The position numbers were made by a program, and so were the translations under genes. From assembly GCA_004213835.1 (NCBI GenBank), contig SHAE01000009.1, positions 1 through 33,195 on the forward strand: a stretch of 33,195 nucleotides of DNA, in the 5' to 3' direction. Origin of the DNA: OM182 bacterium (GTDB taxonomy: Bacteria; Pseudomonadota; Gammaproteobacteria; Pseudomonadales; Azotimanducaceae). The notes under the pieces were generated by a model that had not been told where the DNA came from, searched no databases, and worked only from the letters and a program-made list of their open reading frames with translations. This document shows positions 19,707 to 23,819 of the stretch, piece by piece (position 1 is the stretch's first letter; each line of letters opens with the position of its first letter).

Positions 19707-20741
19707 ATGAATATACCGGAGGCGCTCGCTCGAATCGTCGAGGGCAATAATCTCAGCCAAGCTGATGCTGCGACGGTTTTTCAGCAAATCATGTCTGGCG
19801 AGGCCACCCCGGGGCAGATCGGAGCGCTGCTCGCCGCACTTCGCGTCAAAGGAGAGACCGCTGAAGAGATCGCTGGGGCGGCGCTTACCATGCGCGCGCT
19901 GTCCACCAAGGTGCCTGCCGTGAGTGAAACCTTGGTAGACACCTGCGGTACCGGCGGAAGTGGCAGCAAGCTGTTCAACGTCTCCACCGCAGCCGCCTTT
20001 GTCGCTGCCAGTGCCGGCGCCAAAGTAGCCAAACACGGCAATAGAAAGATGACCAGTTTTAGCGGCAGCGCTGACGTCCTGGAAGCCGCCGGAGTCTCTT
20101 TGTCGCTGACTCCCCAGCAGATTGCCACCTGCATTGACGAGATCGGCGTGGGTTTTATGTTTGCTCAGGCCCACCACTCGGCCATGCGCTTTGCCGGCCC
20201 TATTCGACAAGAGATTGGCATTCGCACCCTGATGAATGTGCTTGGACCCATGACCAACCCTGCGGGCGCGAAGCGTCAAGTCATTGGCGTATTTTCCAGA
20301 GCCTGGCAGCACAAAATGGCGGAAGTGTTGCAGCTCCTAGGATCCGAACACGCCATGGTCGTGCACAGTGATGGCTTGGATGAAATTCGCCTAGATGCAC
20401 CCACACATGTGGTAGAACTAAAGAATGGCGCCATCACCGAATACGACATCTCGCCTGGCGATCTTGGGCTAGCGCCTCGAACCGATGCCGACCTTGCTGG
20501 CATCGTCGCTGACTCCGCGGCGTCGAGTCTTGCTCTGGTGCGACAGTCACTCACAGATGACAGCAGTGCCGCGGCGGATATTGTCGCGCTCAACGCTGGC
20601 GCCGCGATTTACGTCAGCGGCGTTGCCAACTCCTTGTCAAACGGCGTGGCGATGGCCCAAGACGCCATCTCCAGCGGCCAAGCCAAGGAACGACTGGCAG
20701 AACTGGTGCGCATCACGTCACTGATGTCTGAATCATCATGA
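19707..20741 (+). CDS. trpD: anthranilate phosphoribosyltransferase
   Basis: Transfers the phosphoribosyl group of PRPP to anthranilate, the second step of tryptophan synthesis. 344 residues. PRPP-binding [25 protein letters not shown] (about 77-101, GTGG motif), [21 protein letters not shown] (about 110-130), [34 protein letters not shown] (anthranilate pocket) and HSDGLDEI. It starts 9 nt after trpG with a GGAAG ribosome binding site and overlaps trpC by 4 nt. Confidence 0.98.
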
Positions 20742-21538
20742 GCACTATCCTCGACCGCATCCTTGCGACCAAGGCAGGCGAACTGGTGCAGCGCAAGGCT
20801 CAACGGAGCCAAGCAGATCTCGAGTCGGCGCTGGCTAACGCCTCTATGACCGATCCACGAGGCTTTGTTGCCGCGCTGCGTCGACAGGCTGAACAGAAAC
20901 AACCGGGCGTCATTGCCGAGATCAAAAAAGCATCACCAAGTAAGGGCGTTATTCGCGCCGACTTTGATCCTGCAGCCATTGCTAAGGACTACGCAGCTAA
21001 CGGCGCGAGCTGCTTATCGGTTTTAACCGACGAAGAATACTTTCAGGGGAGTGACGCCTACTTACGCGAGGTACGCGGGGCGGTGGATCTGCCAATTATC
21101 CGTAAAGACTTCACCATCGATTCGTACCAGATTTATGAGGCGCGACTGATGGATGCTGATTGCATCTTGCTCATCGCCAGCGCCCTAACCAAAACCGAAC
21201 TTGCTACCTTGCATGGAACGGCTAGAGACCTAGGTCTCGACGTGTTGATTGAGGTGCACGATCGCGCGGAACTTGAGATTGCGCTGTCCCTCGACCCCAA
21301 TTTGATTGGCATCAACAACCGCAATTTAAAAACCTTCGAAACATCCCTCAACACCACGCTGGAGCTGCTCAGCGAAATACCCGTGGGTACGACAGTGGTG
21401 ACGGAAAGTGGCATCGGTACGCGGCAAGATGTCGAAGCCATGCTTAGCCAAGGCGTCTACTGTTTCTTAGTGGGGGAGGCGCTGATGCGGCAACCCAGTC
21501 CGGGTGCCGCACTGTCAGCGTTATTTGATCAGCACTAA
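20738..21538 (+). CDS. trpC: indole-3-glycerol phosphate synthase
   Basis: Cyclises CdRP to indole-3-glycerol phosphate. 266 residues, TIM barrel, monofunctional (no fused TrpF domain as in E. coli). Signatures: [13 protein letters not shown] at the N-terminus, [21 protein letters not shown] with catalytic Glu and Lys, [43 protein letters not shown] and [13 protein letters not shown]. Together with trpE, trpG and trpD it forms a compact trpEGDC unit; trpF, trpB and trpA must be elsewhere. It converges on the Crp-like gene with only 22 nt between stops and no clear terminator there. Confidence 0.98.
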
Positions 21539-21560: not shown

Positions 21561-22397
21561 TTAGCGGGTACCGCGAACAACAATGTTCTTGCCATTCACT
21601 TCTATGTCGCCTTGATGAGCGAGAACCTTGATCGCACGGCCAACCATTTCGCGCGAACAACCGACAATGAGCCCAATTTCCTGACGGGTCATGCGAATCT
21701 GCATGCCATCTGGATGCGTGATGGCACATGGCCCCTTGGCTAGATGCTGCAGAGCATTGGCGACACGACCGCTGACATCCAAAAATGCTAGGTCGCAAGC
21801 CTTGTGATCTGCCGAGTGCAGGCGCTGTATAAGCTGGTTGGTCAGTGCCCGCAACAACGCTGGATGCGTCATGCCAACCTCCATAAAGCGCTCTCTCGAA
21901 ATGGAGGCTACAGCGCAGCCCCCCTTTAAGTTAGCCCAAAAATCTGATCCTTCAGGATCGGTTAAGGCCGTCTCACCAAAGAAATAGCCGCGACCGAGGT
22001 AATCGTTAATGATTTGCCGACCGTTTTCTGTGTAGGTGTGCAGGGTGACTACCCCATCCACTACCATATAAATGCGATCATCATTATCGCCGGGCTGCAG
22101 CACGATCTCTTTTTGCTTGAAAGTATGAATGGTCGCGTCTTGCAGCAGCGCGACCAACAAGCCCTCATCCAATTTGCTGACGGCCGACAAGCACTTAAGG
22201 GATACCGGAAGGGATGCTTCGAGATGCGCGCGGCGCTCCTCTGGATTGAGGCTTGGCTCTTGAGCAGCAGCCCTATCTGATATCTCCTCCGCCATGGATG
22301 GGGAGGCTATCTGTGAGGCAAATGCATCATGCCGGGCAGATGCATTTTGACTGTGCATTGCGGATCTGTGGTAACCATTATTTTCTGTCGCCTTCAT
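21561..22397 (-). CDS. Crp/Vfr-family transcriptional regulator with altered nucleotide pocket
   Basis: 278 residues. A cyclic-nucleotide-binding fold (about 80-200) is followed by the dimer helix (LAFLDVSGRVANALQHLA, about 203-220) and a C-terminal winged helix-turn-helix (MTRQEIGLIVGCSREMVGRAIKVL, about 236-259). The recognition helix keeps the Crp residues R249, E250 and R254 that read TGTGA half-sites. In contrast, only one canonical cAMP contact is kept: E142 equals Crp E72, but the R82-S83 position reads SDF (151-153) and T127-S128 reads A196-D197. The N-terminal extension of about 65 residues is unusual; the start at 22397 is supported by AGAGGAGAG just upstream, while the internal ATG at 22295 has none. 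Genomic position next to trpC matches vfr in Pseudomonas. Confidence 0.9.
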   Translation of the reverse strand: MKATENNGYHRSAMHSQNASARHDAFASQIASPSMAEEISDRAAAQEPSLNPEERRAHLEASLPVSLKCLSAVSKLDEGLLVALLQDATIHTFKQKEIVLQPGDNDDRIYMVVDGVVTLHTYTENGRQIINDYLGRGYFFGETALTDPEGSDFWANLKGGCAVASISRERFMEVGMTHPALLRALTNQLIQRLHSADHKACDLAFLDVSGRVANALQHLAKGPCAITHPDGMQIRMTRQEIGLIVGCSREMVGRAIKVLAHQGDIEVNGKNIVVRGTR

Positions 22398-22698
22398 CGA
22401 GTCTCTCCTCTAAAGATCTTCAGCGCTGGTTCCTCAACAACCGCCAGACTTTTGTTCTGCCGAATTTGCTTACCCTTGGATTGACCCAGGAAGGTAATGC
22501 TTAACTATGTGAACCAGTCGCTTTTTATGCTTTCTGGATGCTATGCCTACCCTCCGAAATCGCGCCTGTGGGATGACAAACGGTAGTAAAATCCCTACCA
22601 AATGCATTTTTTGGGAATTGGTTAGGAGGTTTCACCACCGATTGCGGAGCAAAACCAAATCTCAGCAGCCTTTAGCGAGCCACTAAGCGAGGAGATTT
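22398..22698. promoter_or_regulatory. divergent intergenic region between the Crp-like gene and the OsmC gene
   Basis: 301 nt without a gene. A Crp-type half-site TGTGA (22509-22513) lies in ATGTGAACCAG, about 110 nt before the Crp-like start, so autoregulation is possible. A -10-like TAAAAT (22587-22592) points toward the OsmC gene, without a clear -35. Immediately downstream lies a nested inverted repeat: inner CCAAA...TTTGG (22598-22614) and outer CCTACCAA / TTGGTTAGG (22594-22601 and 22618-22626, one-base mismatch by insertion). This may be an operator or a leader hairpin. Confidence 0.4.
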
Positions 22699-23121
22699 AT
22701 GCAGGTCACGGTAGATTGGCAGGAGAATGTTCACTTCGTTGCCACCAACGATTCCGGGCATAAGATCGCAATGGATGGACCGCCTGATCAAGGCGGCGAA
22801 GACCGGGGCAGTCGTCCCATGGAGCTGATGTTGATGGGTTTAGGCGGCTGTACGGCCTTCGATGTTGTCGATATTTTGCGCAAGAGCCGACAACAGGTAG
22901 CGGGGTTTTCAGTTGCCCTCAGCGCCACGCGCGCAGACGCCATTCCTGCCGTATTTGAAACCATCAACATCCATTTTCAAATTACCGGCAAAGCTCTCGA
23001 TGCGGCGAGAGTACAGCGCGCCATCGACCTGACTGCCGAAAAATACTGCTCCGCCTCGATCATGCTCGAGAAAGCCGGTGTGATGATTTCGCATTCTTTC
23101 GAATTGCTGGAGGAAAGCTAG
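22699..23121 (+). CDS. OsmC family protein (YhfA-like)
   Basis: 140-residue OsmC/Ohr-fold protein. The family uses two cysteines to reduce organic hydroperoxides; here they are the Cys of GLGGCTAFDVVDILRK (about residue 51) and the Cys of EKYCSASIMLEK (about residue 116), both preserved. The opening HFVATNDSGHKIAMDGPPDQGGEDRG and the lack of OsmC/Ohr-specific signatures place it with the YhfA subgroup, whose substrate is unknown. Good ribosome binding site (GAGGAGA, 6 nt). It is divergent from the Crp-like regulator, a frequent pairing (E. coli yhfA lies next to crp), so control by that regulator is plausible. Confidence 0.88.
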   Translation: MQVTVDWQENVHFVATNDSGHKIAMDGPPDQGGEDRGSRPMELMLMGLGGCTAFDVVDILRKSRQQVAGFSVALSATRADAIPAVFETINIHFQITGKALDAARVQRAIDLTAEKYCSASIMLEKAGVMISHSFELLEES

Positions 23122-23159: not shown

Positions 23160-23819
23160 CTACAAACGGTAGGTGGTTGTCGTCATAACCTTAGCCAGTC
23201 CACGCATAAACTGCTTCACCGGCTGGGGAAATTCTTCACCCCCATCTGCCAACGCTTGCGCGCCATGACGACTTTCGTCAGCTCGCATAGCTTCTAAAAC
23301 CCTGCGACTTTTTTCATCTTGCTCTGGCAGGGTTTGCAAGTGTTCGTCGAGGTGCTGCACCACCTGATCTTCTGTCGCCTCGACAAAGCCAAGGCTCACA
23401 CGGTCGCCCAGCAAACCCGCTGCAGCACCCATGGCGAAGGACAGCCCGAAAAACACCGGGTCAAGAATACTCGGCCGAGCATCTAGCTCACGCAGACGAG
23501 ACCGGCACCACACCAAGTGATCTTGCTCTTCGGCAGCTGCAGACATCAGCGAATCCTTGGCATTAGCGTCTGACGCTGTCAGCGCCTGCCCCTCGTAGAG
23601 TGCTTGGGCGCAGACCTCACCGGTATGATTGACCCGCATCAGACCCGCCACATGCGCACGTTCTTGTGCAGTCATATCTGCTTCAGCCACCTCAGCTGCC
23701 GGGTTAGGCCGAGCAGCCTGATGTACACCGGTCAGGGTGCGCAGCCCGCGATCGAAGCCACTGATCCACTGATCCAATCCATGACTTGTGCGATGACGGC
23801 CCGATTTTGTTCTATCCAT
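23160..23819 (-). CDS. coq7: ubiquinone biosynthesis hydroxylase Coq7 (2-polyprenyl-3-methyl-6-methoxy-1,4-benzoquinol hydroxylase)
   Basis: Di-iron monooxygenase for the penultimate step of ubiquinone synthesis, replacing the flavoprotein UbiF found in enteric bacteria. 219 residues. The six iron ligands are visible in two repeats of E...ExxH: HTGEVCAQALYEGQ, AAEEQDHLVWC, EATEDQVVQHL and MRADESRHGAQA, with a hydrophobic hairpin VFFGLSFAMGAAAGLLG that probably associates with the membrane. The start ATG lies within a 13-bp tandem duplication just past the purD stop; no ribosome binding site is evident, so translation may be coupled to purD. Placement beside an OsmC-like gene and vfr/trp matches Pseudomonas. 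Confidence 0.95.
   Translation of the reverse strand: MDRTKSGRHRTSHGLDQWISGFDRGLRTLTGVHQAARPNPAAEVAEADMTAQERAHVAGLMRVNHTGEVCAQALYEGQALTASDANAKDSLMSAAAEEQDHLVWCRSRLRELDARPSILDPVFFGLSFAMGAAAGLLGDRVSLGFVEATEDQVVQHLDEHLQTLPEQDEKSRRVLEAMRADESRHGAQALADGGEEFPQPVKQFMRGLAKVMTTTTYRL

Follow-up and report, generated by a model that had tools for sequence, protein, structure and literature searches.

The window, a stretch of 33,195 nucleotides from an OM182 bacterium, encodes at 21561..22397 on the minus strand a 278-residue orthologue of CRP/Vfr in which, as confirmed by alignment, the DNA reader is present while the contacts to cAMP are lost. Judging from its residues, the protein probably acts without cAMP. 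With moderate confidence, we favour an explanation in which a single ancestor of a subgroup within the genus lost cAMP sensing, with the protein kept as a cAMP-independent dimeric regulator in the conserved crp/vfr locus.

Loss or change of the signal in allosteric switches is usually inferred across distant families. Here, canonical CRP, CRP lacking the cAMP contacts, damaged copies and clean deletions are all encountered within a single genus, at one locus flanked by the same genes, and one subgroup bears exactly those substitutions that free E. coli CRP from its need for cAMP. The order of events in the loss of cAMP sensing is hence directly testable with natural variants. The system appears to be an instance, from nature, of a sensor-switch that has become a simple DNA-binding regulator, and it warns that a CRP-like gene need not imply cAMP control.

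The window protein and its locus

Among PDB structures, E. coli CRP and the Vfr of Pseudomonas match the window protein best (E about 1e-46), with 41% identity to E. coli CRP over the aligned positions, and both a Crp-type helix-turn-helix and a cyclic-nucleotide-binding domain are recognized by Pfam. The NCBIfam CRP equivalog NF008732 also matches, at 204.4 bits, under its cut-off of 266. The gene sits between two conserved neighbours, trpC (20738..21538, plus strand) and an OsmC-family gene (22699..23121, plus strand; 140.3 bits, cut-off 138), followed by a third, encoding a COQ7-type monooxygenase (coq7; 23160..23819, minus strand), and then by purD, purH and a tRNA-dihydrouridine synthase gene. 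In the E. coli region compared, crp likewise adjoins an OsmC-family gene (yhfA), a neighbour common to both. As far as gene comparisons go, the ORF is shown to be the ordinary crp/vfr gene of the clade in its conserved locus. In the 90%-identical sister (the gammaproteobacterial MAG G028), coq7 is split across frames (L091:9401-9882), perhaps an assembly error.

From its ATG start, the minus-strand frame encodes an N-terminal extension (residues 1-63, boundary approximate; 22209..22397), the cyclic-nucleotide-binding domain and C-helix with the altered pocket (residues 64-208, boundaries approximate; 21774..22208; PF00027 match of 54.2 bits at residues 91-176) and the DNA-binding domain (residues 209-278; 21564..21773; PF13545 and PF00325). 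The preliminary description had proposed a Crp-like regulator with DNA reading intact and cAMP contacts lost, a view borne out by the alignment, by 12 altered relatives and by the selection described below, as well as, weakly, by candidate operators. In the alignment to E. coli CRP, E72 and R123 correspond to E142 and R192, while R82-S83 of the phosphate-binding cassette are replaced by S151-D152 (21942..21947, minus strand), and T127-S128, the C-helix contacts with adenine, by A196-D197 (21807..21812, minus strand). The stretch equivalent to D68-A95 of CRP, encompassing the phosphate loop, is one residue shorter, so that the retained glutamate, both replaced pairs and the nearby deletion all agree with the initial reading. 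It had also been raised that shifted residues might supply the Arg, Ser and Thr contacts; no arginine able to replace R82 is found in the alignment between E142 and W154.

The recognition helix CSREMVGR (21636..21659, minus strand), previously noted as Crp-like, indeed has R180, E181 and R185 of CRP, and positions 156-164 of AR1 are unchanged save for M157I. Measured against a cAMP-activated CRP, the window protein thus possesses the orthology (CRP branch and conserved locus) and the DNA-reading residues, but not the phosphate-binding Arg82-Ser/Thr83 pair or Thr127 with Ser/Thr128 on the C-helix. It shares domain order, recognition helix, most of AR1, E72 and R123 with E. coli CRP and Vfr, whereas R82, S83, T127 and S128 are lost and an extension of about 63 residues is present. 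AlphaFold2 models were poor (mean pLDDT 42.6 for the window protein alone and 40.6 with the sister), and a structural argument was dropped.

The extension, described at the outset as Ala/Ser-rich, has 13 Ala and 9 Ser in its 63 residues, and the Shine-Dalgarno sequence AGAGGAG (22405..22411, minus strand) lies 7 nt 5' of the ATG. The extension is probably translated, since its alignment with the sister shows neither insertions nor deletions and the open frame has a dN/dS of 0.19 in its first 84 codons, 4 of which precede the ATG. A stop codon lies inside the extension of the relative G029; the extension may be dispensable, or the draft sequence may be wrong at that stop.

Ligand-free CRP is already known as a kind of protein. 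DdrI of Deinococcus and SdrP of Thermus have likewise lost part of the cAMP contacts, and DdrI is reported to bind DNA without cAMP, setting a precedent for such binding by a CRP-family protein (PMC11253593). DdrI is also reported to retain Glu and Arg in its phosphate cassette but to differ in the last two residues of the recognition helix (PMC11253593); the window protein, unlike DdrI, sits inside the CRP/Vfr branch, has lost the Arg and has the whole recognition helix intact. What is new is that such a protein, probably ligand-free, arose within the CRP/Vfr line, and that its sister group bears natural CRP* residues. A literature search covering few subscription papers returned, among the matches listed, none on the CRP of this clade and none on CRP* alleles fixed in nature.

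Origin, selection and decay of the altered genes

A CRP homologue is found in 77 of the 97 genomes searched, the source genome (G000) included. R82, S/T83, T127 and T128 are all present in 62 genomes, that is in 63/63 canonical rows, as G084 carries two copies; one of these rows has D for E72 and two are without R123. The broken crp of G024 and that of G057, split over two contigs and left unscored, were excluded from the CRP alignment and tree. A family-wide search recovered homologues in 100/206 genomes, with the 6 newly scored all canonical.

Altered CRPs occur in 13 genomes, the window and 12 others, all within the genus of the window. R82 and S83 are lost in 13/13, and T127 and/or S128 are changed in every one. 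Both C-helix positions differ in 12/13, T127 merely becoming Ser in four of these 12, while G039 retains T127 with E128. By contrast, R123 is present in 13/13 and E72 in 12/13 (G015 has G), and the DNA-reading helix is present in all but the truncated G011. Subgroup A (G000, G028, G023, G011, G001, G038 and G029) has S/A/T-D in place of R82-S83 and A-D in place of T127-S128, subgroup B (G005, G015, G016, G020 and G039) has Y/H-K and S-D (T-E in G039), and G036 has L-D and A-N.

In the CRP tree, a quick one in which a long branch meets theirs, the 13 altered rows group on one branch, with an SH-aLRT of 98. In a tree built for 22 genomes from eight neighbouring genes, the same 13 again come together (98); G024 and G019 fall within this group, and G013, G022 and G035 fall outside it. 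One branch of 13, against 63/63 canonical rows with intact contacts, confirms at the level of the alignments that the loss is not due to chance.

Comparisons of dN/dS by the Nei-Gojobori method, dS being saturated in many other pairs, show the altered gene to be under purifying selection. Between the window and its sister, the cAMP (sensor) domain has a ratio of 0.063 and the DNA domain one of 0.010; in the remaining subgroup A pairs for which dS could be measured, the two domains have 0.07-0.12 and 0.014-0.029, respectively. When G015 is left aside, subgroup B pairs range over 0.07-0.16 and 0.009-0.036; the G015-G016 pair, left out of this range, has 0.28 and 0.31, and the comparison of G023 with the truncated G011 yields 0.075 and 0.088. 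Canonical pairs with measurable dS reach 0-0.036 in the sensor domain and 0-0.026 in the DNA domain. The sensor domain of the altered proteins is thus relaxed but far from neutral, as its ratios are above those of canonical pairs, yet low.

Decay is nevertheless apparent in some tips. The crp of G024 contains six in-frame stops as well as indels, with nine neighbouring genes free of either in their matches, that of G011 ends before the recognition helix, and that of G015 has one stop. Damaged copies are found in 4/14 altered-group genomes (G024, G011, G015 and G029) versus 1/63 of the non-altered (G084; p 0.003), or in 3/14 if G029 is not counted (p 0.018), with the split G057 scored as not damaged. 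Elsewhere in the genus the gene is gone: about 44 bp separate the trpC and osmC matches in G013, crp being absent, and neither crp nor osmC lies between trpC and coq7 in G022 and G035. Taken together, the cAMP signal appears to have been lost once, with the gene kept under selection as a DNA-binding regulator and discarded in some tips.

CRP* substitutions and candidate operators

Selections in E. coli without adenylate cyclase have yielded CRP* alleles, reported as S62F, T127I, G141D/S, A144T/E and L195R, also A144K, with early alleles at 53, 62, 141, 142 and 148 (PMC6603298); L148R and L148K are named as CRP* alleles in PMC6157895. Changes at position 195 are reported to act on top of other changes in cAMP-independent CRP, and T127A to suppress the CRP* phenotype of G141S (PMC6603298). 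Canonical rows have G141, A144 and L/M/I148 in 63/63 and L195 in 62/63. In subgroup B, on the other hand, E144 is found in 4/5 and S141 in the fifth, with K195 in 5/5, and G036 has K144. Here, unlike in the E. coli selections, the substitutions have become fixed in natural proteins whose cAMP site is destroyed as well. Subgroup A has Q148 in 7/7, with G141 and A144 unchanged and T127A present, so that 148 is the sole CRP* position changed in the window protein, the published alleles there being R and K. Since T127A suppresses G141S in E. coli and G141 and A144 are retained, the substitution argument is weaker for the window protein than for subgroup B; the operator argument is the stronger one for subgroup A.

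We counted TGTGA-N4..8-TCACA sites in 23 genomes, with the backwards sequence as control. The nine A-type genomes (subgroup A, G036 and G024) contain 31 sites versus 11 in the control, subgroup B 26 versus 28 and nine canonical genomes 61 versus 52. Sites were then classed as intergenic or coding with reference to ORFs of 130 aa or longer rather than annotated genes, leaving out G012, G014, G032 and G037. In the eight genomes of subgroup A and G036, sites with the spacing of 6 are intergenic in 9/11 cases and those with other spacings in 2/16 (Fisher p 0.0005; 27/28 sites used, one G038 site omitted, and G024 moved to a mixed set), against a background intergenic share of 16%. With one of each orthologous pair removed, the figures are 8/10 versus 2/15 (p 0.0015).

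As a positive control, six canonical genomes (G021, G034, G003, G004, G002 and G008, with G017, G031 and G025 left out) gave 5/9 versus 4/24 (p 0.039) once completed to 33/33 sites, the first 20 having given 2/5 versus 3/15. In the crp-deleted G013, G022 and G035 (18/18 sites), the shares are 2/7 versus 0/11 (p 0.14), and in the mixed set of G019, G033, G024 and G010, in which crp is broken or unfound, 5/12 versus 1/8 (p 0.19; 20/21 sites). Subgroup B, represented by all 11 sites of G016 and G039 with G005, G015 and G020 left out, displays no enrichment (1/4 versus 2/7, p 0.79), although two of its three spacing-6 'coding' sites overlap an ORF start. For spacing-6 sites alone, subgroup A differs from the deleted set at p 0.039 and from the deleted and canonical sets joined at p 0.055. 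This small test, with its mixed controls, suggests operators in intergenic DNA for the subgroup A-type CRP.

Candidate intergenic sites in the source genome and its sister are TGTGAAGCGCCTCACA and TGTGATGCGCATCACA. In G000, G028 and G019 (L136:2501, L140:2501 and L208:2134), a TGTGA-N6-TCACA site with a varying spacer is shared, flanked in each genome by the same pair of orthologous ORFs, neither of which has a Pfam match above cut-off; another such site adjoins one and the same ORF in G000, G019 and G033. The candidates fit an operator kept in the subgroup of the window, as a small set of sequence matches not tied to this protein. No sign of autoregulation was seen, as no TGTGA-N6-TCACA-like site with at most 2 mismatches lies beside crp in the window, which has 5 in total versus 13.1 expected. 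In G023 (L144, about 2501), a TGTGA-N6-TCACA site precedes by 126 bp the gene of a second protein with a cyclic-nucleotide-binding domain, which is a candidate for an alternative receptor of cAMP.

Cyclases, the ligand pocket and competing readings

A second, canonical Crp and an adenylyl cyclase were looked for in the source assembly (a 1.6 Mb draft, 70% complete), which yielded no second CRP homologue, no other cyclic-nucleotide-binding domain and no match to a class I or III cyclase. Among the relatives, the class I cyclase (PF01295) has no match in any altered genome, while the class III domain (PF00211) is found in 13/14 altered or broken genomes, all but G000, with half a domain only in G028. 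A Lys with Asp (class IIIa) or with Thr (IIIb) marks the adenylyl type. Such residues are readable in 11/14 of these genomes (with a stop inside the domain in G016); no motif was found for six loci (one each in G011, G028, G039 and G093, two in G023), and three weak matches (G023f, G036d and G038b) carry other residues. Close relatives of the G024 IIIb cyclase, scoring over 500 bits, occur in 9/14, as well as in G019 and G033, and are absent in G000, G028, G011, G029, G016, G013, G022, G035, G002 and G021. As these relatives encode class III cyclases with adenylyl-type residues, cAMP is probably made in them, where it may act through other receptors. Two ideas were abandoned on these data: that the contacts were lost following loss of the cyclase, as altered genomes mostly have class III matches, and that a guanylyl cyclase supplies cGMP, as the readable motifs are mostly of the adenylyl type.

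Clr is reported to hold cAMP and cGMP by the same Arg-Ser pair (PMC10127613). This pair is missing here, and we infer activity without ligand as well as a pocket filled by salt bridges. Following loss of cAMP sensing in the ancestor, the dimeric CRP would bind TGTGA-N6-TCACA-type operators without ligand, with the kept AR1 surface probably contacting RNA polymerase, and the output would be set by the amount of protein, or by the new N-terminal extension, rather than by cAMP. The pocket would be occupied by salt bridges among E72, R123, the new D83 and D128 of the partner (D128'), and the gene would be dying in some tips while deleted elsewhere in the genus. Ligand-free FNR/CRP members such as DdrI and SdrP are described as filling the old cavity with salt bridges (PMC12937710). 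Against this ligand-free reading stand the class III cyclases of the relatives, the conserved pocket of subgroup A, its retained G141 and A144 together with T127A, and the small size and mixed controls of the operator test.

The conserved pocket points to a tentative alternative, with a lesser but real chance of being correct, namely that it was rebuilt for a different ligand, with the subgroup A acids D62, E72, D83 and the partner's D128 placed around R123. Four such acids would be expected to keep cyclic phosphates away, and the pocket could accommodate a cation, an amine or some other metabolite; N61, D62, E72, D83, F84, A86, R123, A127 and D128 are invariant in 7/7 subgroup A rows. Over 16 pocket positions, picked by hand and partly from recall, 12/16 are conserved in subgroup A versus 47/103 in the rest of the domain (p 0.026), and position 128 is acidic in 12/13 altered rows. 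However, in subgroup B, where position 83 is Lys, conservation (with G015 left out) is no higher in the pocket than elsewhere in the domain (10/16 versus 58/103, p 0.43), D62 also occurs in 10/63 canonical rows, and non-allosteric relatives such as DdrI and SdrP are reported to have a salt-bridged cavity (PMC12937710). The narrower proposal that the acidic pocket (D62, E72, D83 and D128') senses something positively charged, for example a metal ion or a polyamine, with the old operators kept and cAMP serving other receptors, strikes us as unlikely; if true, an ancestral cAMP switch would have been rewired to a new signal within one genus. That the altered CRP still answers cAMP or cGMP through contacts from other residues is very unlikely: E72 and R123 are present and adenylyl cyclase genes are common in the subgroup, but the phosphate Arg and Ser are both gone with no Arg in the loop, the same pair is reported to serve both nucleotides in Clr (PMC10127613), both C-helix positions are changed in 12 of the 13 altered rows, and the source assembly, at its 70% completeness, returns no cyclase.

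The surplus of damaged copies in the altered group, and the absence of the gene from the locus in G013, G022 and G035, could instead mark the window gene as a dying remnant, functionless in this genome. We deem this decidedly unlikely, as the window copy is open and has the low ratios against its sister given above for both domains, and some of the damage in draft genomes may be assembly error. The preliminary description had left the choice between another ligand and none, with Xanthomonas Clp and c-di-GMP as the model for the former; our favoured ligand-free reading retains 'none', whereas the Clp analogy is not upheld. Clp, a homologue of CRP, acts without cAMP, as proposed for the window protein, and is released from DNA by c-di-GMP; its binding to DNA is reported to need no ligand (PMC12937710), and one GGDEF match each is found in the altered G001, G038, G011, G036, G016, G039 and G005. 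Yet the pocket Arg that Clp is reported to keep (PMC12937710) is lost here, and GGDEF has no match in the altered G000 (70% complete), G028, G023, G029, G020 and G015, nor in the broken G024, rendering control by c-di-GMP highly improbable.

The reverse of the expected pairing was also encountered, with five genomes having canonical contacts (G002, G003, G017, G021 and G034) and no PF01295 or PF00211 match at E 0.001. Their class I cyclase may be too diverged to be detected; class I matches were recovered in G007 (E 1.9e-15) and G018 (E 1.4e-9). Finally, the IIIb adenylyl cyclase gene of G024 adjoins an ORF with a DUF6272 domain (L116:568-1227 and 1312-2367), which we take to be SiaB-like, an arrangement as if the cyclase had joined a Sia-type module.
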